Shown in pieces: positions 12,613-48,151 of a stretch of 64,000 bases of DNA. The DNA is from Symbiodinium natans (Eukaryota; Sar; Dinophyceae; Suessiales; Symbiodiniaceae), in NCBI GenBank assembly GCA_905221605.1, contig CAJNDS010002155.1, forward strand, positions 248,001 to 312,000. Direction: 5' to 3'. Numbering within the stretch: position 1 is the first letter of the stretch; every line of letters starts with the position of its first letter. The notes under the pieces were generated by a model. It was given only the letters and a program-made list of their open reading frames with translations. It did no database searches and had not been told where the DNA came from. A program made the position numbers and the translations under genes.

Positions 12613-13793
12613 AAGAACCAGCCAGTCTGCAGAACCCAAGAAGCCACAGCAATGCCGGTAGCAGAGGGGATCCGATGGAGGCCACCACGAGCTGGATGGA
12701 CTGCACTGGCACCTACAAAGGTGGATATTTAGGGTTTAGGGTTTAGGGTTCATAGGGTTATAGGGTTATAGGGTTATAGGGTTCAGGGTTTAGAGTCTAG
12801 TGTTTAGGGATATCCGTCTGGGTCAAAGCCAGCCCTAGTGGTGCGACCATTTCAGAAAAGATGGTGCTGATGCCTGCCATGGTCAGGCAGAATGCTCTCC
12901 TCTACTAGCGGCTACGGTAACCATGGTGCCGACCGCGAAGCGTTTCTCGCGCCTTCTCGTAGACCTTCCGTAGCAAGCCATAGTCATTGAGAGCCAGGGC
13001 CAGGATCATAGCACGAGAGATGTCTCCCTCATCGAGCGCCTCACTTAAGATGCATTCCAGAAGAATTATAAGGCATCGGGGGCATGGTTACAGGGCTACA
13101 GTGGGGCGTGGCATGGGTGCCGCTCAGTTGCCTTCAGCACCGCTGGTGCCGACACAGCTTTGGTCAGCATCTGCGGTACAAAGCGGCTGGTCTCTGACCC
13201 GTAGATACCAGAAATCCCTGCCATGCCCATTCCACCGTCCTGATGAGGGGAGAGCAGCTCGGCACATTCTGCACGCCTAGCAGGTCTGCACCGGACTTCA
13301 AAGAGTCCTAACAGTCCTGAATAGGGATAATAAGAGGCGGGTACTACTATACTCCCTACTAAGGACTGTTAGCATAAAGGGGAACATGCCAATGTGTGGG
13401 TAAAAGCCCCAAGGTAAGTCCACCCGCGGAGGCTAGACTCTCACGCTCGCAATGGGGAGCCGAGGGTATGGACTCGTGCCATGGGTCTACAGTCGTGGGA
13501 TGCTGTGATATTCAGCATCAAAATCATGTACTTCATTGTACTTCCTTGATTCATTGTACTTCCTGATCCTTTTCTGAGGGTAACACATTGCACGGTCGAG
13601 AAACCCTTCTGTCCCAACCCATTCTACAGTGACTTTTGCCTGCAGACACTCCTGACAGTAGACGAACACGCCGTGGGTAGTGGCTACCGCAAACTGCTGG
13701 GAGTCCGCAGAGAACGCGACATCCCAAACGTGCAACTCCTTCTCCGTGTAGGCATCCTGGACAGACGCCCTGCTTATGGTGCAGGGAAGGCCT
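12613..13793 (-). CDS. PWP2: PWP2 3' exon cluster (last blade and start of C-terminal helical domain)
   Basis: Exons 13793-13657 (LPCTISRASVQDAYTEKELH, then FSADSQQFAVATTHGVFVY), 13217-13132 (SRFVPQMLTKAVSAPAVLK), 13039-12953 (ALDEGDISRAMILALALND) and 12712-~12613 (VPVQSIQLVVASIGSPLL). Joined, they follow the PWP2 order: last WD blade, the F-P--L----V segment, R-A----A--LN, then the -VP---I--V motif. Phases join without adjustment (137, 86 and 87 bp exons). The upstream partner exon lies 13.7 kb away at 27637-27542 and is phase-compatible through a GC-AG junction (SR|GLP). The final C-terminal exons below 12.6 kb were not recognised. Confidence 0.75.
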
Positions 13794-16700
13794 CTGGAGC
13801 TACTTAGGGTTTAGGGTTTAGGTGTCAGCGGCTGGCATATATATATATATATACATATGTACATCAAAACTCGCTGCCCCCAGACGCGGAATGCGATCCT
13901 CAACATACCTTAGGCCTTCCTGTAGCCTTAAGAACCCATGGGTTCGGCCTTCCCATGGAGGGCTAACTATCGCCCCACGGGTTGCGGCTATGAAAACTTG
14001 GGGCCTGTTCGTGGGACTGCTGCTGGATGGGTTTAGGCTTCAGGGTTTAAGGGGGCCTCTCTCTCTCTCTCTCTTTTAAGGGGGCCTACATCGTAAAAAA
14101 AGAGTACATTCCCACTACACGCATTCTAAGACGAGCCGGAGCCCGGCCGTTTTCTCTTCTCAGACCCTGCAAGACTCTATCCTTGAGCCGACTCTAGATA
14201 GCCCCAAGTCAAAAAAAGGGATTTAGGGTTTAGGGACATGGGCCTTCAAAAAATGGTCTCACATCTCTGTTGTAGATGTATGCCTGGCCCTGTTGTTAGA
14301 GTCATGCAGATCTCCTTGCAGAAGATTGGCTTTTCGCGGAGGGGTTGCCCCAAAGAGAACAGCTTTGTGACAAGCCGGCCCTATTTCACAGAAAGATGCC
14401 GGGGGCTGATGCTGCGCACGTTGAACTGTTTAAGTCGCCGCCCGCTACTATTCTTGCCACCCGTCTAGCGCCGCCCGCTAGGGTAGGCTGGAAGGAACCC
14501 CATGTTTGACTCAGGCAGGTTCTCAAAACGACAGATAGAATACTTCCGCAGGAGCCAAAATAAGTACCCAAACATGGCTCCACGTTGTTCCTCCACTCCC
14601 TCAACAGCCCTTGGAAGTGCCAAAAGCACATCAGAAGACGCCCGCAAGAGGCTTTTGAAGGCCTGGGAACCACGCCAAGAGGCCCGCAAGAGGCTTTGGA
14701 AGGCTCCGGAGGCTGCTATTTAGAGGACCAAGGCACGCCAAGAGCCCAGAGGCCCCAAGAAGCCACCCTAAGAAGACGCGAGGGCCAAGAAACCCAAACG
14801 CCAAGAGGTCGCCTCAAACGGGCGCGCAAATGCTGTCTTAAACATGATCCCCCGCAAATATTCTAGGCGTGGGTTCCCCAAGAAACGTGGAAAAAGCCTC
14901 AAATCCCCGAAAAAAAAACGAAACCCGAAATCTATCTGTACAAGGATGACTACACACACACACCCTAAACCCTAAACCCTAAACCCATGTCTCTCTCGGC
15001 TCCTTGGCCTCGCCTACAGACACTCCAGGCAGTGAGCTGACCTGACGCTTCTGCTGCCGCTGCCGTGACACCTCCAGGTTGAGATTAGGGTTTATAGGGT
15101 TTAGGGTTTAGGGTTTAGGGTTTCGGGTTTAGGGTTTAGGGTTTAGCGTTCAGGGCATATAGGGTTTCGTTAGGGTTTCGTGGGTTCAGTTCACAGTGAC
15201 AGGGTTATGTAGGGCCGTCAAGGTTTAGGGGCGTTGGGAGACCTCAGTGGCTCTGAGCTATCGTTTTCGGAGTTGCAGGGGTTTACAAGCTTCACCAACA
15301 CCCTAAACCCTAAACCCTAAACCCTAAACCCTAAACCCGAAAGAAAATGTATTTCGCGGCTTCAGCTCCATAACGTCTGAACTTCTGGCCTCAGTCATTC
15401 AGGGCTACACCGATCAGGTGACCAAGCAATGCAAGCGTCACACATCATGCAAGACCTCTGAGTACCAAGCCATATAGAGGAAGGGGAAACGGAGAGAGAG
15501 AGAGAGAGAGGGAGATAGAGAGAGAGAGAGAGAGCGAGAGGGAACAAAAACATGTTTGAAAGCTTCAACATCATTATATGGGATGCCCAACAGCCGCAAC
15601 TTCTTTCTGCGCAAAACAAAAATCAGTTTGGCGACTCCCATTAACCTTGAAATGACCAAAAAATTAACGCATTTGGAATTCCGATACTTCAGGTACCGGT
15701 ATTGTGGAACATGGTGAAACGACTTGAAACACTCCTCTGCCCGAACATCGTCGCAGGTGAAACAAACGACTTTTAAAAGGTCTCAGCATCACCAAAATTG
15801 CTCGCCGAAAGCTTGCTGGACATAAAGCGCGAACCACATCGTCACAGTGCGCGGTACTGTATGCACGAAAAAGCGCACGCTTGAAGGATGTGAGGCCATG
15901 ACTTGATTCAAACAGTCTCGCCCATGAAACCATCAAACAGTGCCAATGATGCCACGGTCGCGCATTCCTCTTTCTGACCCCAGAAGGCCTGTAGCAAGAA
16001 CTCTGGCGTCTTCTGCTCCAAAGCAAAGTCTGCCGCGCACAAGCCACGCGAGTTTCGGATGTCGATCCTAGCGCCGGCGGCTATCAAGATTGCTGCGCCA
16101 TCGTAGTGGCCGGACATGATAGCGGCCATGAGGGGCGTGCTGTCCGGAATGTGAAAGCACAGGTGTGTAAGAGGCGTGACATGACCCAACCTATAGCGAA
16201 GAGCATGCATCGTAACCATCATCCCAAAGGGGCTGAGCAGCGGGTAGCCGTTTCGATGGTCTACATCGGCTCTCAGATCAATGAGTCGCTGGACTACCTC
16301 TGCCTGGCCTCGGAACATGACCTGGGTAGCCCAGGAACCATCTTATGATAAGGGCACCCTTTCTTGGGTTGGTTGTTTTTTTTCAGGGAAACCGTAAACA
16401 AAAAAAAGGGTAAAGGGTACCACTGGGCTACCAAGTTACCGAGGAATAGAGGGCGTGAGAAAGGGTGGCGCAGCCAAAGGCTTCACGCCCAGCTTGCGCA
16501 ACAAGCTCATCCAAGGCACCCACAGCCCCAAACATGCAAGCCAGGCTCACCTGTACTCCCCTTAGAACCTGAATAAAAATCATATGTAAAATACCCTCTT
16601 GGGGTTTATATAAACCAAAAACCAAAAAGAATTCCCAAAGGAGAATGCAGTCACAGTGGGAGTCCCGAGTGGGTCCGTGGCCAAGGGGCTGCAGCCAGCC

Positions 16701-19700
16701 AGGCACAGGAGCCGCACACCCTCCGAATTATCTCCCACACAAGCTGAGGTGAGGCCCCATCCTCCATCTGCCCGAGCCTTGGCCCCCAGCAGTATGCGGA
16801 CGGCGTCGTTGTTCCGGTGGCGCAGGCACAAGTCCAGAGGCACGACGCCTGCCATGGCCCCATGCTTCGGGTTGGCCTTCTTGGCCTGAGGATGGCCCTG
16901 AAAACCCTCTGAAATTATATTCCTAACTCTGATCCTCTTCAACCCAAGAAGGGAAAATATACACATATCCCAAGGGCTCACCGAGTGGCTGTGCAGTGCA
17001 GATCAGCTTGCTGCTTCAGGAGCTCTTGGATCAATGCAGGCTCACCGCGAAGAGCAGCATAGTGCAGCGGCGTCCATCCGCAGGAGTCCCTGTCGTGAAT
17101 CGTCTGAAAGCCATTCTGAAACAAGAAGGCCGCAACGTGGGGTGCATCCGAGCTATTCAAATGAGGCTCTGCCGGGACTATGTCGTACTGTGGCTGCTCT
17201 ACGAACCCTCGCAGCAGCACGGGCTGAAGGTTCAGTAGCACCCGATATCCGAGAATGTCTTGTGCTTTCAGCAGCATGAGCAGCTTCCTGCGCAGGGCTG
17301 TCTGCAGAACTGGGCCCAGCTGTAGTCGGTCCGCGGCCAGTTTAAATTTGCCCTCCCCCGGGGGGACACCGAAAAAACCCAACGAGCTGGCGAGCTCGAA
17401 CTGCGTCTGGCTTTTGATCCTGGGTGTTGCTTGCAAGCCCTTTGCAAATCATGTATGAATAGGTTCCCTGAAAAAGGGAAAGAAGGGAAACTCACAGCTA
17501 TCCCAAAGCAATACCCAGGATCACGATCCACGACCCATCTTCCGAAAGCTGCCTGAAAAGCCTCTCCATGCAGCACCATCCTTCGGTGGGGATTCGCGCG
17601 GCCGCGCAAACAAAAAAGTTGAGAAGACACCGTTGTCTTCTTCATTTTTTCTTAGTTTTGAGTTTACCCTTTCTTACAACATCGGGTTGCAGTATGAGGG
17701 CCCAGATATCGAAGCAACAGCGATTCCCAACTTGGGTGCCCGAGCATCCTCTTTCTGCCCAGGTCCCCCACGTGAACACCTTGCGCAGGCTCGGGGACTT
17801 GATCACCGGGGTGAGGATGAAGAAGAAAGAGCACCTGGAGGTGTCCGAAGTTAGGGGGCACCTTTTTGCTGGGGGTCCTTATGTCAGAGGGGAGCCATGG
17901 GGTCTATTTATTTGGGCACCCCCCACCTGGTGATGTAGCCTGGGATTGAGTTGATGGCATGTCTGCATTCGGTCTCTTTCAGCTGCGGGCAGGAGAAGTA
18001 GTCGTACCAGAAGAACCTGGATAGTATTAAAACATCAAATTATTCCTTCCTGAGTTTAAGTACCCTTAAAGAGGCAAAATGTTACCCCACAATGACAAAG
18101 GAACAGCGGTGCGAAAGTGAGCTCGGAGGTGTGCATCGAAGCATCGCACACAAGCATCTCGTTGTGAATGTCGTGGTAGATATGCATCTTCTGGGCCATC
18201 ATATGCCTGTCGAGCTCTCTAAAACACGAGACCCAAAACTCAGACAAGAAGGTAACGGAATCAGAATACCAACCCTAAACCCTATAAACCCTAAACCCTA
18301 AAAATTAAACCCTAAACCCTAAACCCTAAACCCTAAACCCTAAACGCGAACAACACATACAACCCCAATGGCAGGCCTCACGGCATCCTGAAGCACAGAC
18401 ATTTGCCGAAACTCAGGGTCAGGGTGGTCTTCTCCAACCTTGGGTCACCAAAACAGGGTTTAGGGTTTCGGGTTTCGGGCTTCCCGACTACCCCCCTACT
18501 ACCCCCCTACTACCCCCCCCTACCCCCCTACTACCCCCCTCAAAACAACCCCCCCCCCCCCCCTCCGCCCCCTGCGTACCTCCCTTGAAGTAACCTTACT
18601 TTGGCTGAATTATCCCCAAAACAGCCTGAATTATGGGGGGGGGAACCTTGCAGAGGCGGGTAGCAGCACATGAACCCCAAAAAGGGTTCAGGGTTTAAGG
18701 GGTTTTATGGTTCACATACCTTTGTAGGGGGTTATCGTAGTATAGGGCAAAAGGAGCAAACAGATGCTGTCCTCAGACCTCCACCCCTACTCGCCTTCCA
18801 TCTCCCGCCAAATCATTCTCAACCCGCTTAAATCCACAACACAAACTCGCAAATGCTCCTCTTGAGAGGACGAGAAATAAAGGAGCAGAGAAAGCAATAT
18901 ACGTAAGGTGAAGATGGACAGGAAAAGATACGAGAATACAAGCAAATCATGTATCATTCCGAGTTGTGTGATTATGATATGAAGAAGTGTAAGAAAACAC
19001 TACACGAAAACCACCAATACGTCTTACAGAGAAAAGTCTGAACAGTGAAAAAAACTGGAGCGACCTGATGAACGGGACATGTATTACGGTCTTGCATATT
19101 TCTTTTGCTTGACACGAAAGACGAAAGAAATAGATTATGACTGGTATAAGCATGTATCCAGCGAAGAACACAACACAGCAAGGTCAGATGGTCTAAGTTA
19201 TGTGGTATAAGTATATAAAATCTATAACTTATATCATTTTCCAGCTATTGTTTTGTGGATTTAGTAGGCAGGTTGAGAATGCTTTGGCGGGAGATGAGAG
19301 GCGAGTAGGGGTGGAGGTCTGAGGCCAGCATCTGCTTGACCCCAATCTTGGGGTTCATTGGGTTTAGGGTTTAGGGTTTAGGGTTTAGGGTCGCCAAGGA
19401 ACCCATTGATGAGACACGAAGACGGCCTTCCCCATGTACTTGGCAAAAGGCACAAGCATGTTTCTCTCCTGCGGGCGTCACCAAAACACCGCGTCTCACT
19501 CCTGAACCTACGGCAAGGGTCACGGAGGAAAAGAAGGTCAAGAAAACCGAAATGCAGCGTTAAATGCTGATTGGCAGCTTCCAGAGACAAACATGGGCAC
19601 AGGATTCTGCGTTGCACACAAATTCCGAGTGCAATCGTGGGTTTTGTTGGACGATGGTGGTTCCGGATAGCGGAAACCCAAACACAACATGCCTTCCCAA

Positions 19701-22700
19701 GCACAGCACAAAACTCGAAATTGAAAGAAGCAACAAAACTAAGCCTTCTGGTCCACTTTAGCATTGGGTTCTTGGAGTTGCCGTTTGAATTCTATTAACG
19801 TTGGAGGAAAGAAAGGAACAAAGAGAATGCCTGAGAGAGCCAAGGAAGGCTCAACATGTGAGATAAGTAAACATCTTGTGGATCACGGGGGTGGGGGGGG
19901 GGGGGCCAATACGCATGTGTACAATTGTATACATATGTACGCATGCATCTCTTCTTTTCTTCTGCGTGTATGTCTGTCTGTCTCTTTCTTTCTTTCTTGG
20001 GGGCGTGGGGGCGAACCCCCTGGCTGTGCGCCTGCCCCGGTATTCGGGGTTCCTTTGTCGGTAAAGCTCGGGAGACAAGGTCAGGCTTGGCGCTTAAATT
20101 CCGTGCTGCCCCAATCCTTAAGGGTCCTTAGTTCCCCCCCCCCCCCCGCGCCATTCCCTTCCGTTTCTCTCCCTGGCTGGTACCATCCAGCTTGCGAACT
20201 GCCGGGGCCTTTCAGAAACTGTCGGAAGCTAGGTCAGCGACTACCACCCTCTGGGCCCCCTACACGATTTCATAGCCCCCGGAGTTCAGTGCAGTGAAAC
20301 GAGTTAGCCTTCTGTGGTCTCAAACAGGCTGGCCCCCTAAACTCCCCAAAGCAGCCCCAAATCAACCCGAAGTCCTACCCTCGAAGCGCCTGGAAGTGGA
20401 ACCTGAAAACTCCCAGCCCCCACAACGGCTTACTCACTCTACTTTGCTGTGCTATGGCTCCGTGCGAGGGTAGACTGGGCCCCCTCATGTTGGAAATTCC
20501 TACTGCCAGTGCCCCCCTGTACTTAGTCAACTGCTAGTGCCCCCCTGTACTTAGTCAACCCCCGCGTGGGCTCGTCTACGCCTGTGCTCCTCTGCTACAT
20601 TCAGCAGGTCAATGCCCCCGGGGGGCTCAGTACGTCTGCGCCGGTGTGTTTCATCTTCGTCCCCCGCTTCGTCTTCTTCTTCTTCTCCCGCTTCTGTCGT
20701 GAGGTGCTTGTACTGGTAGCTTGACCCCCCACTCCTGGACCTTCTGGTGCGCTGGCCGAAAGCCAGCCTCCGACGCTGCTTGGACCGCCTTCTATTTGCG
20801 GCTATCCCCATTTGGGCTTCCCACCTTCTCCTCATCGTCTGCGGCTGCGGGTAGCTACTAGGAGGCGGGGGTTGCCATGCTTGCGTCGGTGGCGTGAGTG
20901 GTGCACCCCCATCTATCCCCTGTTCCGAGCTGGTTGCTCCCCCTGTTCCCCCTCCTGCTTCCAGCGTGACGATTGCCTCGATCTTCTCCCTGCCATTATC
21001 GCGATCTGGTAGTAGGTCTCGGTCTCGTTGGTTGGTTTCGCCCCCAGCGTGGCCCCCTCTCGTCGCAGCCCCCACCCGTGCAGCCCCCTCGCTTCCGCCT
21101 CTCCTTCTCCTGGCTTCTCCTCCCGTGCTTGGTGGCGGTGGTGGTGGTGCCGTGTGTCGTGGTGGTGGTTGTTGTTGTGGTGGTCGTGGCTGCTGCGGTG
21201 GCCACGCCGGTGGTGTGGGTTGTTGTGGTGGTTCTGGCGTGTCTTCGATGGCCAAGAGGTCAGCCCCCCAGAGGTTGTGGCACCACTCATTGAGTGCTTG
21301 TAGCGCCGCTTCGAGTTGTTCTTGTACTTCCCCCCCGGTGAACGGCATCAGCCTCTGGAGGATGTGACGCGCTCGCACAATGGGGTGGCCCGTTGGCTGG
21401 AGCTGGTTCCCAGGGTTTGGTCCCGGTGGTGCTTCTTCTCCCCCCGCTGCTAGCGCCAGGGCATCGGCCGGATGCACCTCCCCCCCTTCCGTCCCCCGGT
21501 TGTGTTGTGTTGCCAGGGCACTCGCCTCCCCCCCCAGGCACGCTTCCATGTGGTGTTGTGCTTGTTGTAGGTGGTGGCTTGCTTGCGGGTGCGTCGGGTA
21601 GCTTGCCGCTATGAGCAGCTCCTGTTCGGCTTGCGGTGCTCTAGCTTCTGCCATGGATTGGAGTGCCCAGCTGCTGGTCCTTACCACCGTCCCCAGCCAC
21701 CTCCTCCCCTGTCTTAGCAGCCCCAGGATTGCCCCCACATCCTGTATCCTCTCCTCCGCGTTCAGTGCCCCCCAGCCCATACGGACGTGCTGTGCCAGCC
21801 TGATTGCTTCTTCAAAGTTGGTGGTGCCTCCTGTGTGGTGGGTCCACCCCCCCGTTGCTGTGGTGTCGTTGTCTTGGGCCGGGCGCGGTGGTGGTGGGTT
21901 GCTGCTGTCAGGGTTGTTGATGGGCGACGGCGGCCGTTGCTCCGCTAGCCTGGTTTGTGGCCTGGTGCTGCTGCTCGCGGGTTCCTCTCCTCCCCCCGGC
22001 TCCATATCTTCTGTGTGGTTGTTCACCAGCTGTGGTCCCGTTGCCCCCCCTTCCCCTGTCCATGCCTGCAGGCATTCTAGGGCATTGGTCAGGTGGCTGT
22101 GCCCTGACTGTAGGGTGTTGGTGACTGCGTCGGTGGTAGCTTGGGTGCCGGTTGTGTGCTCCTGGAGGGCCTCGAGGGCTGCTTGGATGTATGTCGCGGC
22201 TGTCGTGGCCCCTCTTGCTCGGGCGTCTAGCTGGGGTTTGTGGCGCTTGGTTGCTTGCTCTTCTGGTGGCTGTTGTTTCCTCTTCCTGTCTCCTCTGCCC
22301 CCGCTCTTCCTGCCGCCTGACCTGCCCCCTCCCCTCCCTCTTCCTCGGCTCTTCTGGACCATGCAGTTGTCCTCCTCTTCCGCTTCTGCCTCCGCTGCCA
22401 GCTGTTCTTGTGCTTGTCGCCGCGTGCGGGGTGTTCCCTCCGGTTGAGGGGGCGGTGAGGGTGGTGGTGGCGTGGGTGGCGGTGCTGGCATCGTTGGTGG
22501 TGTGGCTGCCGGCTTCCGCTTTGGTGCTGGGTCAGAGGGCCGGCTCCCACTTTGCTGTGGGTAGGCTTGTGTTGCTGGTGGTGTTCCTGTGTTCTGGGGG
22601 TGTGGTTGTTGTTGCTGCTGGCTTGGTGGTTGCTGATGGCCCGAACTGGACGCCCCCCCTTGTTGGTAGTTGGGTTGCGGTGCGTCTGGCCCCCGCTGGT

Positions 22701-28700: not shown

Positions 28701-31700
28701 GCAGCCTCCTTCTTCCAGGCCCACCTGAAAAACCCTCTGCCCCCTACTAAACCCGAAACCCTAAACCCTAAAGCCTCTGCCCACGGTTCCCGCGCTGAGG
28801 AGTGCTTTTAGGGGTGGCGAGGGTCAACAAACTCGGGGACCAAATACACCCTAAAATTGGGGACATGTACCCTGACTACTGCAATTCCTACTAAGGTCAT
28901 GTGAACGATGAACCCTTTTCAGGGCTCATTTGGGTCGTCAAGGAAATAGCCAGGTACTTCAATACTGCGACGAAGGCCTTGCTAGGTAGCGATACTTTGC
29001 CAGCCTCACGCAGCCCTGATCAGGATTTCGAGCTTGAGAATAAGCATGTAGGGTTTGTAGTCACCCTAAACCCTAAACCCCAAACCCTATACACCCTAAA
29101 CCCTAAACCTAAGCGCCAAACCCGCAATGTTTCAGTACTCTTGGCTTAGAAGCCGAGGATCGCTTTTTCATGCCAGCACCCGGCTTCAGGCCGCGCTCGT
29201 TCACAGCAGAGAACATGTCCTGAACTGTGTTTTTTGTGTTTGCCAAGAGGGGTAGGTTTGGGGGCCCCGAAAACGTTGAACCTTTATGGCTTCATGAGAA
29301 AAATAAAGGGGATTAAGGAAAAAATATTTCAAAAATATGTTCACACGGACCCCTGTTTAGACCGGTCCGCAAGGCAGCTTTATCTCACTTTCGCCTCTCC
29401 GGCTTCTAGGGCTGGTAGGTTTACGGTGTTCACAGATTCGTTCTCAAACATATGATATATATATATATATATATATTTCTGGATGCATAAATAAATATAA
29501 ACAAATAAACAAGTATGTATATATACATGCGTGTGTGTATACAGAGAACGTCCTCTCTCTCCCTCTATATATATATATACATGTACGGGCGGGCAGAATT
29601 TCGTAAACAGATGCAATTATACGGAGCAAGGGCCTGCCAATGCCGGGCGCTCTGGATGTCGCGTAGGCCGTCAATGGATCCAATGTTTTGAGCCGTCACC
29701 ACATTCCAGAATAAGACTTGCCCTGAGAGGCAGGCTGCAGCACAAAGATCATTCCTGGGCGCCGACTCGCCCAAAATAGGAGCTAGACTGCCCCATTGAA
29801 ACAAGCACAAAGAAACAAACACACTTCGCCCTCGCATGCTGCCAAAGTCAAAGCTCCTAAGTGCTGGTGCTATAGACCCAGGCTCCCTCGCGGATCGAAG
29901 CTAACCGCCACGACGCTGGAGGAACACTGCAGGGCTTCTGCGGACCCACCTTTGGTGCCGGCGTACAGGTCCCACACATTCAGCGTTCCGTCCCAGCTTG
30001 CGCTGAGCAGTTGTCCGGGGTGGCCGGCGGAGGGGGAGAAGTGCAGGGCCTCTACGTGCGACGTGTGACCAGTGAGGACTTCGAGGACATTCCCGGTCTG
30101 GATGGACCACACATACACGGCGTACTTGCCTCCGGTGGCGCTCGCGGCCACAATTTCGCCACCGGAGTCCACAGCCACGCTGGAGAACTGACAGAGACCA
30201 TCCGGGCTGGCAAATGTGCGGAAATTGCGGTATCGAAGGAGATCGAAAGCCCGAACGGAGCCATCGCGGCTCGCGCTTAGCACCGCATTCCCCTGGGGGG
30301 TGAAACAGATGGCGTTGACTGGTGCTGTGTGTTCTGCAAAGGTTACGAAACAAAGCCCACTCTGCGCGTTGAACAGCTTGACCTTGCCATCGTAGCCGCC
30401 CGTAGCAAGCAGCCGGCCGCCGATGGCGCTGCTCCGGTCCTCCGGCCGGGCGTCGGCTGAGGCCAAGGCCTTGCCACGCTTCATGGACACGGAGCCCGGG
30501 GAGAAGGCTACGCAGCGGACGCCGTAGTGGTGCCCCTGCTGCTTCAGCACATAGGTCTCCGAGCGCCACTCCCAGACCAGCAGCTGTCCCGTGCCAGCGC
30601 TGCCCACCGCCAGCCAGTCCCCATTGGCGCCCAAGGCCACCGCGTCCAGGGGCTCCTGGCCCAGGCTCAGGGTCTGCAGCGCCTGCAGCGCAGGCATCTC
30701 GAAGAGCATCAGCACGCCCGCGCTGAAGCCCACAGCCAGGAGCTGGGCTTTGCCGTCAAAGGCACATCGCATGACCTTGTTGTGTATGGGCTGCTGGCAT
30801 GTGGCCTTGGCTTCCACGGCCCAGGTGCCAGGCTGGCAGTACCTTGGGGACCAAATCAACCCTGAAATTGGGGTCATATACCCTATGCTACTATAATTAG
30901 TATTAGGGTGGTGAACCATAAACCCTTTTAGGGCTCATCTAGTCCCGAAGGTGCAAGAGCTTCCCACGGTGCTCCTCATCCTTGGGGTTGCCCTCCTTGA
31001 GCGTGTACTTGGCTGAGACCTCATGTGCTCACGACATGGGGTGAAGAAGCCCCCTCTTTGGCACGAATATGCAGCCAAGAGACCAGCATACCCTCACGCG
31101 ACCTCAGAAGCATATCCCGGTGAACAAGAACATTCTACCCAACTCGATGCTTCAAGGGCCGGGGGGAACGTCTGCCCTTTTTTTCCCAGGGTTCTTGTGC
31201 TGGAACTTACACTGAGTTACGATCGTATGATCATGTGTGTAGCATAACCTGTACTTCTTGCAGCAACCTGTTTTCGAGGGTCTCTACCCAAAACAAATGC
31301 CACCCACAAGCTAGGAACTCGGGACACGACTTTATGACTCTCTCCTGATTCAGGGGGATGGACTCGTAGCCAGGCGACATGCTGAACAGATACTGCATGT
31401 CGTTGGAGAAGAAGGCGGCTCGGACCTTCGATTTGTTTCAAAGGGAAGGGGGGTGACATGCTCTAAGCAAGCACAGCAGTGTACCGTATCTAGGATAGGT
31501 AGATAAGACAGTCGCCTTAGGCAACTTACAAGGCCCTTTTGTGGGAATCGTGGCTAACCTACCAGGAACCACATGTAGCTGCTCTCGGACCCTAGGACCC
31601 CAGAGTTCCTCCCCTGTTCAGCTGTGCAGCTGGGCTCCGGTGTTCCTTAGCTTTGCGGGGGGGGGGGGGGGAGAAAAGAGTCAGCCTGGAAACCCCTAAT

Positions 31701-34700
31701 CCCTATAAACTAGGCTTTTGGCTGAAGCTCCATGGCCTTGTTGCATAGAAACCCGATCCTTGCCAAGCATTCTCCCGGCCCTGACACCGTCAGGGAGGCG
31801 TTAGGGTCCCTGGTTTGGGGTTTAGGGTTTAGGGTTTGGGCTGCATAGGGTGGTAGGTGCTTGCTAAAGGCTTACCAGCTGGGGCATTTGGGAGTTTGGG
31901 GAGAAGGCTTTCGAGTTTTCCGCCTTCGGGTTCTGAATTAGGGCCCTTAGCTTTCTGTTTTTGATCCTTTGTGACAAGGCCGGACATCAGCTAAATGCAC
32001 GCGTAGGAAGTACTGGTGCAGCACGACGCCCAAAGCCTGTTAGTCTTCCAGAATCGCACAAACTAAAAAAGGGCCAGGTCCATAAGTCATCTGCACATGA
32101 GACCCCCACTCGACATCCTCATCGGCAACCGCTGTCCCCCCCCCACCTCCTTCCAAAGCCGCCAGAATGCCAACCACTGCTCTGCAAAGTGAAGCCCTTT
32201 GTTCGGTCAAAACAAACCCTAAGCACCCAATCGTATCAAACCCCTTGGGCCAAAGGGGCCATCAGCTCCAAACCGCCCTAAACCCTAACCCTAAGCCCTA
32301 AACCCTAAACCCTAAACCCCAAACCCTTTTGAACCGGGACCTCCCTGAAGCACCTGCACCCCTTCAAGGCTAAGCCTCTTGAGGGCCCAAAGGCGCTAAA
32401 CCCTAAACCCTAAACCCTAAACCCTAAACCCTAAACCCTAAACTCTGAACCCCTAAACCCTAAACCCTGAACCCTCCACCCGCCCCCCCGCCCTCCATGG
32501 CCATGGGGCCAGTAGCGCCATGGGCTGGAAGCCTTCGTGGCGGCGAGCGGCCCAGAGTCGAACTGTGCCATCCTGCATTTGATGGGGCTTAGGGTTTAGG
32601 GTTTGGGGTTTAGGGTTTGAGGTTTAGGGTTTAGGGTTTGGGGTTTAGGGTTTGAGGTTAGGGCTTAATTAGGGTTTAGGGTTTTGGGTTTAGGGTTTCA
32701 GCTTTGGGTTTAGGGTTTAGGGATTAGGGTTTACGGAATAGGGTTTCGGCTTTAGGTCGAAGGGGCCCTCTTTGCCGCCCGCGGATGCTTCGGTGTTTTT
32801 GATTTTTCCCCGCCCGTCTGGCATGCAGGCACCCAAGACCAGGTCAACGGCTCATGGCCCGAAGGGGGTGCGACCCTAAACCCTAAACCCTACAAACCCT
32901 AAACCCTATAAACCCTAAACCCTATAAACCCTAAACCCTATAAACCCTAAACCCTATAAACCCTAAACCCGAAATTTGATCAACTTCTGGGGGGGAGGGG
33001 GGCGTTTTGCGACCTCGAAGTGCTGGGCCTCGCAAGCGCCCTCCCCCCCCTCCCATGCGGGGCTCAGGGCTGAGGAGTTGGGATTCCCTGTCCTTTGAGC
33101 AGGAGGCAAAGAAGTTCGAGTCGGCGCTCCAGGTGAGTTCCACGACGTCGTCGTGGTGCCCGGCGAGCACGCGCTCCCTCACAAACTGCCAGCCCAACTC
33201 CACGGTCGGAGTCCTGGGGGCCCTAGGGGTGTTTGGGGAGGCTCGGGGTTTCCTGGCCTGGCTACTTCTCACCAATCCACCATGGTACTTAAGGCTGGGG
33301 CTTAAATAACAGAACCCAGGCATGACATGGGAAACACTGAAGCAAACTGTTCTGCATTCACACTGCCCAGCGGCCTCCACAGTTGAATCTTCCGACCATG
33401 GCTCACGACGAGCCTCGCTGCAATCCCCCCCCCCCCCCCCCCCCCCACCCCCCCACCCCCCCCCCCCCGCCCCTTCACAAGTTAGGGCCAACTTTAGGAA
33501 ACAAAAGCCGGACCCCACACAGATGCATCAACCCACATAAACAGACCAACGCGCGACACACAAAACACCCCCCAAAACAAGGTCAAAAGCCACCTACTCT
33601 TACAAAGAACGATCTGCAGCCAGGGTGCCAGCGGGCATCCGGACTCCACTTGGCGCTCTGGACCTGGGCCTTGAAGTTGATCCGGGTGAGGACGGTGCAC
33701 CGAACGAAGTTGATGAGCAAGGCCTTTGTGGGGGTTTGGGGAAACCCTAAACCCTAAACCCTAAACCCTAAACCCTTTTTGCGAATCTTCCCTCTTGGAG
33801 CTTCAAAGAAGCATGGCCGTGCACGTCGATGGAGAGGAGGAGCCGGGAGTCCTTGCCAAGGCTTTGAGATGCCAAGTCATTGCAATGCCTTCCAATTGGG
33901 TTTAGGGTTTAGGGTTTAGGGTTTAGGGTTTAGGGTTTAGGGTTTAGGGTTTAGGGTTTAGGGTTTAGTTTAGGGCCCTTTCCGCATAGCCGGACTTATA
34001 CTGCAGGGCTGTGGCCACTTTTCCGCGCAGGCAGAGTTTCGGGTCGTGTGAGCCATCAGGAAACGGGAACACCTTGGCCCCTCAACTAACCAAAGCAGTG
34101 ATGATCGCCGTGTTGGCCCGTCTTTTGCGGGAGGCGCGTCTGCAGGGCAAGATTTGACCCGACACCCTAAACCTCAAGACCCCAACCCTAAACCCGAAAG
34201 CCGAGGCCCCAAACCCTGCGCCCTAAGGAAGTATCGAAACTTCCCAAGAGCATACCTAGGGCGTCGTCGTGCGGTACACAAGCAAGGTGTCGCAGGTGGA
34301 CATGGCGTAGAGGCCCGGAGCCCAAGCCATGGCACCGTGGAGACCGCAACTGCCAATTGCGCGCACTTCCGCAACCACGCCGGTTGCAGGGTCGCGGACA
34401 AGGGAGGGGTTGAGCTCCTTGGTGTCCACACTGTCTTGCGGCCCATGCACCGCGTAGAGCTTCCCATTCATCCGCAGCCCATAGACGGTCCCGTTCCCGT
34501 CGATGGTCGGTGCAGACCAGTGGGCAGGCCCGCACATGACCTGGATTCCTTCTTCCTGCCGAGCGACCAGGCCCTCGACCTCACCGGCCGCCAAGTTCAT
34601 AATCCCGGTGAAGCTCTCGGTATTGAACTGCCAGAGGTGCTTTCCGGTATTTGCATCAAGCGCGAGGATGCTGGCCTTCAAGTCGGGTGCACCACTAAAT

Positions 34701-36478
34701 GCGCCAGGCAGGAACACCGTGGCGAGGCCGTCGTGGCCTCGAACAGTTCCTACGGCAGGGAAGGAGTTGCAAGGCTCTGACAGGATCTGCTCCCATGCCA
34801 TTTTTCCCGACTCGAGGTCATAGGCACGAGCGACGCCTGTTGAACCCACACCTCCCGTGCTATTGGCATAGTTGCTGCACGTGTAGACTTTGCCATTCTG
34901 TCCCAGAGATGGGCCGCCATCCGAGAAGGACTCGCTGGAGTTCCGTGCTGGGGTCTTCCACACTGGCTTGCCAGTCTGGAGCGAGAGCTTGTACATTCCA
35001 CCTGTGAAGTCCATGAAGACTACCGATCTGTCGTCGGGAAAAAGAGGCGACAGGTTCCAGACCACGTGATCCGGAGAATACTCCCAGAGTTGGTCTCCGG
35101 TCTGTGCATCCAGGCCGAACACTTTCGAGTTGCCCCCAACAATCCTCTTGTCCTCGCCCTCATCAAGTCCGAAAACGAAGACTCCGTTGTGTGCCGCGGG
35201 ATAGCCACAGTCCCCGCCGGCACTCGTCGCCAGCTGGTTCGCCCAAACAGCCTTGCCAGTGTTCCGGTCGACTGCAAAGGCCACGCCTGTGGTGGTCGTG
35301 CTCAACAGCATGTTGCCATAAAGGGAGGGCTCGTTGTTGGAACGGCCTGGCGTTGCAAAGGTCCAGAGCTCTTCTCCGTCAGGAGAGAACTTGCGGATGC
35401 CTTGTGCCGTCATGAGGTACAGGTTCGAGTCCTTGTCGATGATGGGCCCACCGGACATGATGGTGTGATACTGGCCCTTAGGATGCTGCCAGGACCAGGC
35501 GGGCGACCCCAGGTCCCGGGGTGGACCCTCGGCGGACGCCGCGGTCTGACTGCGCCCTCGAAAAGTGGGCCAGTGGTGGCGTGAAACCGCACGGCGGTCG
35601 ACTTGGGCTTGAAGGAGGTGGGTGCTGCAACTTCCCTGGTCCGCCTGGCAGTCTTCTGCTGCAGTTAGGCCGGCAAACAGCGCCAGCACGAGGCGCGCCA
35701 TGGCTTCTTGTTTCCAAAAGAGCAAAAACTGGGTACTGGGAATATACGCCACGCCTTGAGCGTAGACAAAGTGGCTACAGTGCACTGCTTTCGGGCTTCG
35801 GCTCTCTTGCGCACAGCAGGTAAGGCTTTTGAGGTTTAGGGTTTCTCGCGTTTCTAAGCCTCAAGGGCGCAGGTGGAACCAGAAGATAGCGTATAGGAAG
35901 CTCTCTCAGAGACCGCGGCGCCTCCGTCAGCGCCACCACCGCCACGTCCTCCCGATTCTCGGGGGCCAAAGTCACCGATCGACCCTGACATCAATGGCTC
36001 CGAGCAAGCCCGAACTTATTCGGGCGCATGTCGAAGGAAAGGACTCTAGGAAGGCGACTGATGAGAATCCGATTTAGATCGCTTCAGCGTTTTCGGAATT
36101 GGGGGATTGCTGAGGACTCCTCCACTGCCTGTGTCTCGCACCAAACGGTCCGGCATGATACCAAGTGGACTTACATGAACCTACAAGCTCAGCTCACGCC
36201 TTGCCCCGCTCAACCCAACCCCAAACCTGTTCTCCAAAACGAGGCCATATTTTGACCCTCCTTTGATTACTTCTCAAAAAGATGGTCCCTGTTAGGGGTC
36301 CTTTTTCTAAGGCGTCCCTTCTTATGTAAGGTACCCAAAAGGGACCAACATTTAGAGAGCTGACCATATGACTGTACTCTGGCCAGGGTGGTTCCTGCAC
36401 CAGGTCCACACCGCTAATGCGATTCCCCACCGCGCTCAGCAAGACATTTCCATCGGGTGTGAACCTCAGCATGCGCAT
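12613..36478 (-). CDS. PWP2: Periodic tryptophan protein 2 (PWP2/UTP1) homologue, at least 18 exons, both ends incomplete
   Basis: WD40 protein of the UTP-B subcomplex of the small-subunit processome; in known systems it acts in the nucleolus on pre-18S rRNA with U3 snoRNA. Exons read in order: 36478-36395, 35984-35922, 33851-33813, 33723-33629, 33213-33093, 32572-32492, 31425-~31340, 31019-30955, 30842-29886, 29754-~29649, 29219-~29160, 28428-28316, 28078-27997, 27637-27542, 13793-13657, 13217-13132, 13039-12953, 12712-~12613. Phases agree at every junction where both boundaries could be fixed. Family landmarks in the right order include FTPDGNVLLSAVGNR, SRLLLSIDVHGH|ALLINF, GQLLVWEWRSETYVLKQQGH, SVRAFDLLRYRNFRTFASP, IGSIDG, NRSLSGVQSFLN|S|KLMTEAG, then ALNDYGLLRKVYEK|VPVQSIQL of the C-terminal helical region. 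Most introns are GC-AG or GA-AG. Start codon, one exon near 33.4 kb and the last ~150 residues were not located. Two other genes and a giant ORF sit inside its introns. Assignment to the family is firm; exact ends marked ~ are not. Confidence 0.85.
13302..13392. mobile_element. Family G element within the PWP2 intron 13656-13218
   Basis: AACAGTCCTGAATAGGGATA and CTACTAAGGACTGTTAGCAT are inverted arms about 50 bp apart. It lies between PWP2 exons 13793-13657 and 13217-13132. Confidence 0.55.
13800..15900. other. Repeat-rich part of the giant PWP2 intron
   Basis: (TA)n at 13838, CT run at 14058, two imperfect copies of CCCGCAAGAGGCTTT (14640-14720), telomeric arrays at 15085-15165 and 15300-15340, and a GA microsatellite at 15493-15540. 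No exon recognised. Confidence 0.5.
15908..18016 (-). CDS. Ankyrin-repeat protein, at least seven exons, 5' incomplete
   Basis: Exons 18016-17927, 17834-17749, 17580-17523, 17419-16990, 16885-16655, 16550-16440 and 16321-15908 join in phase to a 472-residue open frame ending in TGA. The N-terminal part reads FFWYDYFSCPQLK, SIPGYITRCSFFILTP, TWAERGWCCMERLFRQ and SWIV, a module common at the front of dinoflagellate ankyrin proteins. It is followed by GEGKFKLAADRLQLGPVL, then ankyrin repeats: DSCGWTPLHYAALRGEPALI, GVVPLDLCLRHRNNDAVRIL, VSLACMFGAVGALDELVAQ, then STPLMAAIMSGHYDGAAILI and RNSRGLCAADFAL. Likely a scaffold; no enzymatic claim. Introns are GT-AG, GA-AG and GC-AG; 17926-17835 is a family D and 16439-16322 a family I introner. 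Further 5' exons are expected above 18.02 kb (a possible one at about 18.25-18.1 kb). The whole gene lies inside the 13.7-kb PWP2 intron. Confidence 0.85.
16322..16439 (-). mobile_element. Introner family I, forming ankyrin-gene intron (118 bp)
   Basis: GT-AG intron beginning GTAACTTGGTAGCCCAGTGG and ending CCTGGGCTACCCAG. Terminal inverted repeats are ~12 bp. It matches the exostosin intron 45843-45965 in termini and in the GGGTGCCCTTATCATAAGAT arm. Confidence 0.75.
17835..17926 (-). mobile_element. Introner family D, forming ankyrin-gene intron (92 bp)
   Basis: GT-AG intron starting GTGGGGGGTGCCC and ending GACACCTCCAG. On the plus strand the arm TTAGGGGGCACCTTTTTG and GGGGTCCTTATG matches the element at 11761-11892. 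Confidence 0.65.
18260..20500. other. No supported gene; part of the giant PWP2 intron
   Basis: Telomeric arrays at 18268-18348 and 19358-19392, a CTACCCCC run (18488-18560), a degraded family A element, an AT-rich segment (18880-19260) and a G run at 19887. Frames seen are short and not coding-like. Confidence 0.5.
18671..18752. mobile_element. Degraded family A element
   Basis: TGAACCCCAAAAAGGGTTCA and TATGGTTCACATACCTTTGT with ATCGTAGTATAGGG; both outer termini are lost. Confidence 0.45.
20508..20559. repeat. Tandem 28-bp duplication across the stop codon of the giant ORF
   Basis: AGTGCCCCCCTGTACTTAGT plus CAAC occurs at 20508-20531 and 20536-20559; the second copy contains the TAA stop of the 1647-codon ORF. 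Confidence 0.85.
20551..25494 (-). CDS. Giant intronless low-complexity ORF, 1647 codons, unrecognised
   Basis: Open for 4.9 kb and ending in TAA. A second in-frame ATG at 25446 begins MLRVIGAIVAGLSLGQLWG, which looks like a signal peptide or membrane anchor, so the true start may be there. The protein is mostly disordered: Pro/Gln/His-rich from about residue 330 to 600, a run of 17 mostly Asp/Glu residues (bases ~23222-23290), a basic segment (ERKARRAWERKQQARKRG), an RGG-like box (GRGRGGGRSGGRKSGGRG) and an Arg-rich C-terminal region. Islands that could fold: NNQIIFWPGKRGEYLWAFEV, FEEAIRLAQHVRMGWGALN, and LTVTIPIPP. The motif RELQDRDTG occurs twice. I recognise no domain. Composition differs sharply from flanking genes, and the long overlapping plus-strand frames arise from that bias. 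It could be a retroelement ORF1/gag-like product or a retroposed host gene. Confidence 0.5.
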   Translation of the reverse strand: MLSEATTRHNPRADAAMLRVIGAIVAGLSLGQLWGQSPQLARATAGGKPPHADPAGEWGNHEPAEGGYEPPSNQPEPADGGTQATHPPADPNQGDENDQPTSHRGHRELQDRDTGRDTENGNLEDDQAHHQGATHIHIQWPTNPTEGLPADAPHQDPLPRGRPPNQHLSRPTTPTGQLTLQHHAPDQIPTPWEEYYPSPDTQQPPPQPSAPAHHPNRWAIRIPAPYDPDTDPWHDDQWGHCTPTQRGHPPTPPHSQPTEPGGPQADIPRPTGGHIFLPTTQIPTIGVQSDRLTVTIPIPPTADKGGQLVTRILASIAQCADTPQQPQDDPPSQSTPTETPPSHPNPKQAKQQPAQKQPPQHPPPHLAHCHEGGTEPPQRPEAHHTSQQPAAQPIPPQPRSTHQPTQQAQPPPHQESPPVQPPPQQRQTPPHQQRPNTQQQPQQQRQCEQPTSAQTTGRDPQQQPHQQQPRPTQPQQRQQTHQPPKPHQPKPHEAQPPQHLQHHHDQPPPAKPIPQPPQQPRHHDTPTQGPRQHRSSDPPVKAPPPRQGERPTHHTTCGGTPATKPKPPQPPAEHTDDEEPHQHHAATEGEGEGGSHQEQSQDGPAHWYMREGETFEAMARRARNRHEGRGEQRMRNRERKARRAWERKQQARKRGGKASSEGGGQPTQGGHTPQEDWAELLNRHKRPRDQHPQQNQPTSDRERRELQDRDTGHGDRERDPRTDQPQGTSDSSETHWSSDDDDDDDDDEDDEDEEDEPCAQGHPGPNQANPPGDTSNAPRQPTTTGGGNRGDEGWEWSQDGPPLLPISKNNQIIFWPGKRGEYLWAFEVADQWKHVPGGQRVRQLGRNTPQGEDQPRPIARGTQGQLRKVKGEDVWVMAVTGVATAEEEEETEPGEQPKEHVPLQQGQLARVDPDIYRTSRITPLPMKPRRGDQRGPDAPQPNYQQGGASSSGHQQPPSQQQQQPHPQNTGTPPATQAYPQQSGSRPSDPAPKRKPAATPPTMPAPPPTPPPPSPPPQPEGTPRTRRQAQEQLAAEAEAEEEDNCMVQKSRGRGRGGGRSGGRKSGGRGDRKRKQQPPEEQATKRHKPQLDARARGATTAATYIQAALEALQEHTTGTQATTDAVTNTLQSGHSHLTNALECLQAWTGEGGATGPQLVNNHTEDMEPGGGEEPASSSTRPQTRLAEQRPPSPINNPDSSNPPPPRPAQDNDTTATGGWTHHTGGTTNFEEAIRLAQHVRMGWGALNAEERIQDVGAILGLLRQGRRWLGTVVRTSSWALQSMAEARAPQAEQELLIAASYPTHPQASHHLQQAQHHMEACLGGEASALATQHNRGTEGGEVHPADALALAAGGEEAPPGPNPGNQLQPTGHPIVRARHILQRLMPFTGGEVQEQLEAALQALNEWCHNLWGADLLAIEDTPEPPQQPTPPAWPPQQPRPPQQQPPPRHTAPPPPPPSTGGEARRRRGGSEGAARVGAATRGGHAGGETNQRDRDLLPDRDNGREKIEAIVTLEAGGGTGGATSSEQGIDGGAPLTPPTQAWQPPPPSSYPQPQTMRRRWEAQMGIAANRRRSKQRRRLAFGQRTRRSRSGGSSYQYKHLTTEAGEEEEDEAGDEDETHRRRRTEPPGGIDLLNVAEEHRRRRAHAGVD
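25640..25815. repeat. GGT/GTG-rich microsatellite
   Basis: Degenerate (GTG)n over 170 bp between the RT remnant and the 1647-codon ORF. Confidence 0.85.
25839..26240 (-). mobile_element. 3' remnant of a LINE-type reverse-transcriptase ORF
   Basis: The frame reads RRIWGLWGHVARQHE, then LLWRGQKWWKAEQ, then WDIRAQDRLWWHAQTEEFV. The pattern W-x-W-GHVAR, later a Trp-rich stretch and W---AQDR--W---E-EFV is what follows the polymerase domain at the C-terminus of many non-LTR retrotransposon ORF2 proteins, common in dinoflagellate genomes. No polymerase catalytic motifs are present: upstream the frame dissolves into CT/GA microsatellite. This is therefore a 5'-truncated or decayed copy. It lies 345 bp upstream, in reading direction, of the 1647-codon ORF; the order (RT end, then ORF) argues that they are not one element unless tandemly arranged. 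Confidence 0.5.
26230..26570. repeat. CT, TTC and GT/GC microsatellite cluster
   Basis: (CT)n at 26231-26276, (CTT)n at 26327-26371, CT-rich 26463-26510 and (GT)n(GC)n(GTGC)n at 26511-26568. It truncates the frame of the RT remnant. Confidence 0.9.
27240..27308. mobile_element. Family B element, short (69 bp)
   Basis: CCAGGATGGGCTCCTAGGAC and GGGTATGATAGCCCACCCTGG with a compact GAAGGGCCTTTTAAGGGATT centre. It lies within the 13.7-kb PWP2 intron. Confidence 0.6.
27542..32572 (-). CDS. PWP2: PWP2 central exon cluster (second propeller and acidic linker)
   Basis: Exons 32572-32492 (DGTVRLWAARRHEGFQPM), 31425-~31340 (VRAAFFSNDMQYLFSMSPG), 31019-30955 (linker, AKYTLKEGNPKDEEHRGKL), 30842-29886 (957 bp, most of the second propeller), 29754-~29649 (NDLCAAACLSGQVLFWNV), 29219-~29160 (DMFSAVNERGLKPGAG), 28428-28316 (NQNFNAIAYARSGELLLC), 28078-27997 (RVTLTTNRSLSGVQSFLN) and 27637-27542 (KLMTEAGAPWQQYDLSDSEA). 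The 112-bp intron 30954-30843 is one copy of introner family A. The intron at 29885-29755 is GA-AG and gives FDPR|GNDL. In the main exon an insert rich in Ala/Arg interrupts the blade after VAFSPG. Confidence 0.85.
28831..28943. mobile_element. Family A element inside PWP2 intron or exon spacer
   Basis: ACTCGGGGACCAAATACACC at one end and GCTCATTTGGGTCGTCAAGG at the other, with TACCCTGACTACTGCAATTC between. It lies between PWP2 exons 29219-~29160 and 28428-28316, as a passenger of a larger intron. Confidence 0.6.
29454..29582. repeat. AT microsatellites
   Basis: (TA)n at 29454-29476 and 29566-29580 in the PWP2 intron between exons 29754-~29649 and 29219-~29160. Other (TA)n runs: 6676, 6907-6950, 13838, 26716-26790, 27432, 40284-40325, 45360, 59481. 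Confidence 0.9.
30843..30954 (-). mobile_element. Introner family A, forming PWP2 intron (112 bp)
   Basis: GC-AG intron: GCACCTTCGGGACTAGATG at the donor side and GATTTGGTCCCCAAG at the acceptor side. These are imperfect inverted termini with a central ATTATAGTAG. Exons on both sides are PWP2 and join in phase 2. Confidence 0.8.
32279..32480 (-). repeat. Two CCCTAAA arrays in PWP2 intron
   Basis: Clusters at about 32280-32325 and 32397-32475 with variants (CCCCAAA, CTCTGAA, CCCTGAA). They lie between PWP2 exons 32572-32492 and 31425. Confidence 0.9.
32583..32752 (+). repeat. Degenerate TTTAGGG array
   Basis: About 20 units with TTTGGGG, TTTGAGG, ATTAGGG and TTTCGGC variants, immediately upstream in reading direction of PWP2 exon 32572-32492 and of opposite orientation to the array on the other side. 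Confidence 0.85.
32876..32970 (-). repeat. CCCTAAA / CCCTATAAA alternating array
   Basis: Alternation of CCCTAAA and CCCTATAAA units, a dimeric higher-order repeat, between PWP2 exons 33213-33093 and 32572-32492. Confidence 0.85.
33093..36478 (-). CDS. PWP2: PWP2 5' exon cluster (N-terminal propeller)
   Basis: Five exons: 36478-36395 (RMLRFTPDGNVLLSAVGNR, ends VDLVQ), 35984-35922 (VTLAPENREDVAVVALTE), 33851-33813 (DSRLLLSIDVHGH), 33723-33629 (ALLINFVRCTVLTRINFK, ends SPDARW) and 33213-33093 (GHHDDVVELTWSADSNFFA). They align in order with the first propeller of PWP2 proteins. Relative to yeast and human, about 14 residues are missing between SPDARW and the GHHDD blade, so a small exon between 33.6 and 33.2 kb may be unfound. 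Immediately upstream of the first ATG a second frame reads LAELKLGAPVPSE, resembling the usual N-terminal LLGA segment; a missed splice or a frameshift there is possible. The 2070-bp intron 35921-33852 contains a complete PQQ-type gene. Confidence 0.75.
33898..33971 (+). repeat. Interstitial telomeric array inside the PWP2 intron that holds the PQQ gene
   Basis: Ten TTTAGGG units in the 2.07-kb intron 35921-33852, just upstream in reading direction of the exon 33851-33813. Confidence 0.95.
34256..35701 (-). CDS. PQQ-type beta-propeller secreted protein, intronless
   Basis: A 481-residue uninterrupted ORF ending in TAG. An upstream in-frame ATG would add 28 residues, but the ATG at 35701 starts a convincing signal peptide (MARLVLALFAGLTAAEDC), so I choose it. 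The body carries repeated propeller-blade motifs of the PQQ_2/outer-membrane BamB type: VDRNTGKAVWANQL, LDAQTGDQLWEYSPD, LQTGKPVWKTP, DLESGKMAWEQI, LDANTGKHLWQFN. This predicts an extracellular or lumenal seven- or eight-bladed propeller; no catalytic residues for a quinoprotein dehydrogenase are evident, so enzymatic activity is not claimed. Every other recognisable gene nearby is heavily split, whereas this one has no intron and carries a relict spliced leader 54 bp upstream of the ATG. It lies entirely within a 2.07-kb intron of PWP2, same strand. Confidence 0.8.
   Translation of the reverse strand: MARLVLALFAGLTAAEDCQADQGSCSTHLLQAQVDRRAVSRHHWPTFRGRSQTAASAEGPPRDLGSPAWSWQHPKGQYHTIMSGGPIIDKDSNLYLMTAQGIRKFSPDGEELWTFATPGRSNNEPSLYGNMLLSTTTTGVAFAVDRNTGKAVWANQLATSAGGDCGYPAAHNGVFVFGLDEGEDKRIVGGNSKVFGLDAQTGDQLWEYSPDHVVWNLSPLFPDDRSVVFMDFTGGMYKLSLQTGKPVWKTPARNSSESFSDGGPSLGQNGKVYTCSNYANSTGGVGSTGVARAYDLESGKMAWEQILSEPCNSFPAVGTVRGHDGLATVFLPGAFSGAPDLKASILALDANTGKHLWQFNTESFTGIMNLAAGEVEGLVARQEEGIQVMCGPAHWSAPTIDGNGTVYGLRMNGKLYAVHGPQDSVDTKELNPSLVRDPATGVVAEVRAIGSCGLHGAMAWAPGLYAMSTCDTLLVYRTTTP
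35755..35780 (-). other. Relict dinoflagellate spliced-leader sequence
   Basis: Read on the minus strand, this stretch gives CTGTAGCCACTTTG, then five extra bases, then GCTCAAG. Apart from two substitutions and the 5-base insert it matches the universal 22-nt dinoflagellate spliced leader, which is added to mRNAs by trans-splicing and is not normally encoded next to genes. It ends 54 bp before the ATG of the intronless PQQ-type gene, as expected if a mature trans-spliced mRNA was reverse transcribed and inserted. A chance match of this quality in exactly this position is unlikely. Confidence 0.7.
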
Positions 36479-36525
36479 TCCGAGGGCACGGGGGCGCCGA
36501 GCTTAAGCTCGGCCAAATCGGTTAC

Positions 36526-48078: not shown

Positions 48079-48151
48079 GCTGCTCCTTAGGTTTAGGGTT
48101 TAGGGTTTAGGGTTTAGGGTTTAGGGTTTAGGGTTTAGGGACCTACAGTTT

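Follow-up and report, generated by a model that had tools for sequence, protein, structure and literature searches.

A PWP2 gene of Symbiodinium natans with same-strand genes and a mobile-element copy in its introns

The window, the whole stretch of DNA analysed here, comprises 64,000 nucleotides of the Symbiodinium natans genome (C1843:248001-312000 of the assembly searched, which has 759,417,921 bases in 2543 contigs). Spliced alignment revealed in it a gene for PWP2 (UTP1), which belongs to the UTP-B part of the small-subunit processome. The gene lies on the minus strand, spans ~27 kb and was modelled with 28 exons, which are ordered and free of internal stops and give a protein of 873-879 aa depending on junction choice. 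As the initial annotation had proposed, two of its introns contain whole genes on the same strand: a PQQ gene in intron 3 and an ankyrin gene in intron 20. The features are as follows, in window coordinates.

37455-10473, minus strand: PWP2 (UTP1) gene, ATG 37455, TGA 10473 (spliced alignment to human and yeast PWP2)
27544-37455, minus strand: block of PWP2 exons 1-20 (spliced alignment to human and yeast PWP2, tblastn)
37455-37397, 36464-36395, 35984-35932, 33861-33813 and 33723-33629, minus strand: PWP2 exons 1-5
33413-33338, 33185-33064, 32817-32776, 32012-32003 and 31425-31379, minus strand: PWP2 exons 6-10
31102-31036, 30995-30961, 30842-30491, 30439-29886 and 29754-29634, minus strand: PWP2 exons 11-15
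29219-29192, 28586-28579, 28396-28316, 28078-27997 and 27637-27544, minus strand: PWP2 exons 16-20
10473-13793, minus strand: block of PWP2 exons 21-28, with Utp12 domain and stop TGA (spliced alignment, Pfam, PDB matches, controls)
13793-13650, 13343-13317, 13268-13236 and 13043-12953, minus strand: PWP2 exons 21-24
12712-12631, 11040-10945, 10751-10698 and 10531-10473, minus strand: PWP2 exons 25-28
33862-35931, minus strand: PWP2 intron 3, 2070 bp, host of the PQQ gene (spliced alignment)
34256-35701, minus strand: intronless PQQ_2/BamB-type beta-propeller gene, 481 codons (Pfam, gap-free alignment to C1758)
35778-35755, minus strand: outer spliced-leader (SL)-like element in the PQQ 5′ leader, ending CTCAAG|G
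~35741-35718, minus strand: inner SL-like element in the PQQ 5′ leader, weaker here and clearer in C1758
13794-27543, minus strand: PWP2 intron 20, ~13.75 kb (in-phase boundary analysis)
19973-26232, minus strand: dispersed-repeat copy, 6.26 kb, 5′-truncated, non-LTR-retrotransposon-like
15908-19465, minus strand: nested ankyrin-repeat gene, ten exons, ATG 19459, TGA 15908

PWP2 exons were modelled with our own spliced aligner, using human and yeast PWP2 as template; the human sequence was compared with PDB 7mq8_LO. Because exons were picked by their fit to PWP2, E-values of the model are inflated, and some of the tiny exons (8-10 bp) are of low confidence. That consecutive exons of one PWP2 gene lie in order on one strand had been claimed before, and the alignment supports a larger gene, on the minus strand, than was claimed. 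The 18 exons counted earlier became 28. Exon 1 (37455-37397) and the last three exons, which start at 11040, fall outside the former limits of 12613-36478; thus, from ATG 37455 to TGA 10473, the gene extends past both of them.

The window protein shared 36% identity with its yeast and human counterparts (866 and 908 aligned columns, respectively). WD40 and Utp12 domains were found within one 876-aa protein, with Utp12 at 34.0 bits (cut-off 31.5) in this model fitted to PWP2. The 3′ half alone (194 aa) matched Pfam Utp12 at 37.1 bits against the same cut-off of 31.5. When it was compared with PDB, the top six of nine matches were PWP2 chains (best E 6.6e-21), among them 5oql, which is outside the template set. 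Its C-terminal-profile score was 201.75, and 30 control segments run through the same aligner scored 111.5 or less; the highest control value came from a segment over the WD40 exons of PWP2 itself, and within the long intron no segment exceeded 97.1. Relative to PWP2/UTP1 orthologs, the window protein is homologous over its whole length and has the Utp12 domain; it differs in a shorter acidic region, a shorter C-terminal tail and its 28 modelled exons.

The 27 modelled introns have 15 GC, 8 GT and 4 GA donors, close to the donor shares that parts of PMC10666404 give for S. natans (58, 23.6 and 18.4% for GC, GT and GA). AG|G was found at only 15 of the 27 modelled acceptors, versus 97.1% in the same parts of that source (PMC10666404), indicating that some PWP2 exon edges are a few bases off. 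The edges of the long intron are perhaps among these. Three in-phase readings of the exon 20/21 junction exist (GC/AG|T, GC/AG|A and GA/AG|G), giving an intron of 13741, 13750 or 13759 bp. The very long intron described initially (13,748 bp) is borne out by the model at 13.74-13.76 kb; the in-phase join assigned to it (GC-AG, SR|GLP) is plausible, other in-phase readings being available too. With a median PWP2 intron of 240 bp, intron 20 is ~57 times the median. An intron of 26,372 bp is cited for Crypthecodinium cohnii in a review, in the part concerned (PMC11453091), so that the length is unusual, yet precedented.

When the two parts of PWP2 were aligned separately, they covered columns 2-681 (5′ part) and 692-879 (3′ part) of the 927-column alignment; thus almost no PWP2 residue is missing at the long intron. 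The unconstrained aligner did not make a single jump over this intron, threading seven mini-exons (4-62 bp) through it, with a score of 1389.9 versus 1360.9 when exons were forbidden there. We took the seven pieces as chance fits in 13.7 kb of sequence, because several overlap the repeat or the ankyrin gene. In a further Pfam scan, which took in ten of the 95 ORFs of at least 75 aa in the long intron, none scored above cut-off. Without the 6.26-kb repeat, the intron would measure ~7.5 kb.

Searching the assembly with yeast PWP2 gave at least 74 matches (best 53 of 76 candidates scored). The two best are the long exon in the window, and one weaker match also lies in the window. The remaining matches score lower and were taken for general WD40 proteins; the one on C879, the sole one examined, is 26-28% identical to the window protein. 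A DNA search with the 3′ half gave at least 127 matches (best 40 of 2212 candidates scored), namely itself and 126 others, all in the telomere-type repeat of that half. Protein and DNA searches of the 759-Mb assembly, in which the best candidates were scored, yielded no further intact PWP2, and PWP2 appears as single-copy among the best 53 of 76 and 40 of 2212 candidates. On these searches a second or decayed PWP2 elsewhere was rejected, with only the C879 WD40 match examined closely, and the initially proposed alternative of an intact copy elsewhere finds no support in them. Pfam Utp12 used as a genome query gave no match here, nor in 14 control genomes, which makes this negative uninformative.

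Intron 20 contains the dispersed repeat. Copies on C558 and C1840 match the one in the window at 97-98% identity. Those two share the next 45 bases upstream, which the window copy lacks, so the window copy looks 5′-truncated. Each of the three has AAGAAAG/GA-type simple repeats at its end. The element at 19973-26232 therefore has near-identical dispersed copies, a truncated 5′ end and a 3′ tail of simple repeats. Nothing beyond a 6-nt match was found as a target-site duplication, and no Pfam match to a reverse transcriptase domain was obtained in the frames scanned; the domain may be missing because the copy is 5′-truncated. The repeat is non-LTR-like by form, with its class left unassigned as no such domain was matched. 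From its sequence it is a recent mobile-element insertion.

Inside the repeat lies a 1647-codon ORF (25494-20551) that is of low complexity and T-poor (349 of 4944 bases are T) and has no Pfam match. A 199-aa piece of it had 67 genome matches including itself, two of them at 99 and 98% and many weak, which excludes a host gene. The longest minus-strand frames in the fetched stretches of two other repeat copies have 877 and 1291 codons. The 4.9-kb ORF listed initially between the PWP2 halves is thus open; it belongs to the recent mobile-element copy and is no nested gene. No Pfam reverse transcriptase family matched, in the frames scanned, the remnant that had been listed beside it, the peptide of which presumably resembles LINE tails.

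The nested ankyrin gene was modelled by spliced alignment to an intronless paralog on C380, with the stop taken from the ORF list. The multi-exon gene noted initially was confirmed at 19465-15908: its frame is open across ten exons and matches Pfam Ank_4, Ank_3 and Ank. The aligner also placed small pieces beside the gene, five of them upstream (20336-19876) and a single one downstream (15815-15782), which were dropped as chance fits. The family is large, with at least 123 genome matches (89 of 553 candidates scored), many in a single long open frame. Among the scored candidates, the closest relative is on C1789 (63 and 53% identical in two pieces). An inverted repeat of ~90 bp, 88% identical, was observed in an ankyrin-gene intron (18757-18844 versus 19338-19248).

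PWP2 intron 3 had been placed at 35921-33852 with a complete PQQ gene inside. Its edges moved to 35931-33862, and the gene stands as an intact 481-codon ORF (35701-34256). Pfam PQQ_2 scored 77.3 bits over ORF 34256-35860, and the N-terminus of the protein looks by eye like a signal peptide. The protein had 34 genome matches; besides itself, the most similar pieces belong to one intron-bearing gene.

C1758:201339-236304: intron-bearing PQQ relative, 32 exons over 35 kb (spliced alignment)

The 31 introns of this gene are 405-5395 bp long, one of them with a 5-kb assembly gap, and its exons average ~45 bp. It has 16 GC, 8 GT and 7 GA donors and AG|G at 31 of 31 acceptors. The exon edges were picked by fit to the window PQQ copy. 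Over 479 codons, the window ORF aligned to the joined C1758 exons with zero indels, at 86.2% aa and 88.9% nt identity. dS was 0.25, dN 0.082 and dN/dS 0.32 (our own Nei-Gojobori script). The window copy thus has no introns versus 31 in its relative.

Homology between the two copies runs through the 5′ leader and ends ~5 nt upstream of an SL-like element. This outer element, GTAGCCACTTTG-TCTAC-GCTCAAG, lies 77 nt before the PQQ ATG and has a 5-nt insert. Its local-alignment score to DinoSL was 26, the top score in the window, versus 20-23 in six Markov controls; a score of 26 was reached by 0.016% of up to 20,000 random 150-mers, a pool that includes the site itself. The inner element scored 24 in the C1758 copy. 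A comparable element was absent at the ankyrin and PWP2 starts (scores 16 and 14). An ungapped search of the window for the DinoSL leader with up to three mismatches found none, indicating that the tag on the PQQ gene is degraded. The gap-free match of an intronless copy to a 31-intron gene, together with an SL-like tag where homology ends, fits retroposition of an SL-capped, spliced mRNA. To judge from these sequences, the window PQQ gene is most likely an mRNA-derived retrogene.

Thirteen paralog loci, aligned by eye over short stretches, have fewer introns, mostly at other positions; one intron on C2306 coincides, by eye, with a C1758 intron. Because the SL-like elements are common to C1758, the PQQ family may have been retroposed before. 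The C1758 gene itself, with its 31 introns and SL-like leader, hints at an old retrogene with later large-scale intron gain. An introner origin of these introns was rejected: terminal inverted repeats of at least 8 nt were found in 4 of 31, versus 14.7% of 300 control segments.

Telomere-type CCCTAAA/TTTAGGG repeats occur throughout the window (166 and 151 exact heptamers in 64 kb), for example at 32585-32756, 48969-49071 and 58102-58224. Many are in introns, and they are also found in the C1758 introns. Further ORFs with Pfam matches (46143-53131; L042:1405-2838) include GT47 exostosin, ephrin-receptor-like, WD40 and RCC1 types, all on the minus strand like PWP2. The ORFs scanned with Pfam were mostly minus-strand; the few plus-strand ones gave nothing above cut-off.

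We consider it probable that this is a single-copy PWP2 gene whose introns took up other DNA, whose mRNA is cis-spliced, and whose nested genes have mRNAs of their own. A processed PQQ mRNA would have been reverse-transcribed and inserted into a PWP2 intron of ordinary size, intron 3 having measured ~0.5 kb before the retrocopy. Intron 20 would have grown to 13.75 kb as one insertion followed another, the latest apparently being the mobile element (6.26 kb), which differs from its copies by 2-3%. Ordinary cis-splicing over the 13.75-kb intron would yield the mRNA of PWP2, and SL addition at their own 3′ splice sites those of the nested genes. Transcription of the nested genes may begin at their own start points or come from a shared precursor; from a shared precursor, one molecule would give PWP2 or nested mRNA, never both. 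Relics of the SL have been proposed, in the part of PMC6050394 that deals with them, to bring the promoter motif TTT(G). The PQQ relic in the window retains TTTG. Its end, CTCAAG|G, could serve directly as an AG|G acceptor and, by an idea of our own, may be reused for trans-splicing.

We further hypothesize a conflict between trans-splicing and nested same-strand genes. In its strongest form, PWP2 and the nested genes would be alternative products of one precursor, so that SL addition at a nested acceptor (e.g. CTCAAG|G at 35755) would end the PWP2 output of that molecule and act as a brake tying ribosome-assembly dosage to ankyrin and PQQ output. We regard this form as speculative and quite unlikely.

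The nested frames may instead be passengers that are removed together with the introns and stay silent. Retroposition requires no function, and expression of ankyrin and PQQ is a prediction from sequence; nevertheless, both frames are intact, the ankyrin frame is kept through ten exons, and dN/dS of PQQ versus its relative is 0.32, making silence rather unlikely. We find it doubtful, with a modest chance of being right, that the PQQ pair arose by DNA-level duplication of an intron-poor gene, with the C1758 introns gained later. The SL-like elements in both copies would suit such a duplication, as would the aligned paralogs, which are intron-poorer with mostly different sites (by eye, over short stretches). 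It would, however, require 31 intron gains at dS 0.25, and homology breaks off at the SL-like element and does not extend into upstream DNA; the C2306 intron matching a C1758 position also speaks against it.

Two other readings deny that PWP2 is one working gene. If unrelated stretches had been joined in the assembly, or if the locus were real but broken, the working gene would look different. The gap of ~57 times the median intron of 240 bp, and a multi-copy repeat within it, a common site of misassembly, would fit this reading. Against it, the 104 kb around the locus contain no N bases; the two halves lie on one strand in the right order, their phases fit, and hardly a residue is lost between them; neither half was found elsewhere in the assembly; and the matched edges of the repeat copy fall inside the intron, away from PWP2 exons. 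As far as these data go a misjoin appears unlikely, and we hold the reading as a whole, misjoin or broken locus, to be very improbable. Alternatively, PWP2 could be two separately expressed genes, each SL-capped, whose products assemble as two chains. No crossing of nested genes would then be needed, and an in-frame stop a few codons past the exon-20 donor (ORF ending SPWRSRQV at 27534) makes a truncated N-terminal PWP2 product possible. The break, however, falls within what we take to be the WD40 part; no methionine occurs among the first ~50 residues of the frame open at exon 21; and the linker has its usual length only when exons 20 and 21 are joined. Separate genes are thus highly improbable.

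With the single-copy, cis-spliced PWP2 gene as the favored reading, the locus shows cleanly how a dinoflagellate gene can acquire others inside it: an apparent SL-tagged mRNA copy and a recent mobile element entered introns of a single-copy host, and everything lies on the same strand. The intron-rich PQQ relative, which has 31 introns and the SL-like elements in common with the window copy, offers a starting point for studying intron gain. Host and passengers run in parallel and cis- and trans-splicing are both present, so the locus lets competition between the two be asked about directly.

Retrogenes tagged with DinoSL, with intron-bearing parents and SL relics, are described in parts of PMC6050394. 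Like them, the PQQ copy is intronless with an SL relic upstream, the direction of change being unproved. Unlike them, its relic has a 5-nt insert and is common to the intron-rich relative, and the copy lies within an intron of another gene (compared with the same parts of PMC6050394). In human cells, intronic L1 elements and nested genes cause transcriptional interference, and nested units can truncate or alter host mRNA, according to the abstract of PMC3192792; that abstract has no spliced leader, and at the PWP2 locus interference is conjecture. The ctenophore Hormiphora californensis has parallel nested genes together with SL trans-splicing, many of them beside transposable elements. It is an animal genome, and the relevant part of its paper gives a negligible nested share for protists (PMC8527503).

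Dinoflagellates are already known to nest genes in this way. In our literature search for such nesting, which took in few subscription papers, the only dinoflagellate genome study by title was that of Polarella glacialis (PMC7245778). The portion of that study at hand gives 4898 (8.4%) and 3359 (6.5%) predicted genes within introns and up to 18 and 24 nested genes per host, with full-length transcript support (PMC7245778). Since thousands of genes are nested in one dinoflagellate, the PWP2 case is less surprising than the initial annotation suggested. Polarella resembles the present locus in its intronic nesting, at times of several genes per host, within a unidirectional genome. It offers a genome-wide count with full-length transcripts, whereas here one locus is described (PMC7245778, same portion); what the PWP2 locus adds is the traced origin of nested pieces within a single-copy host.
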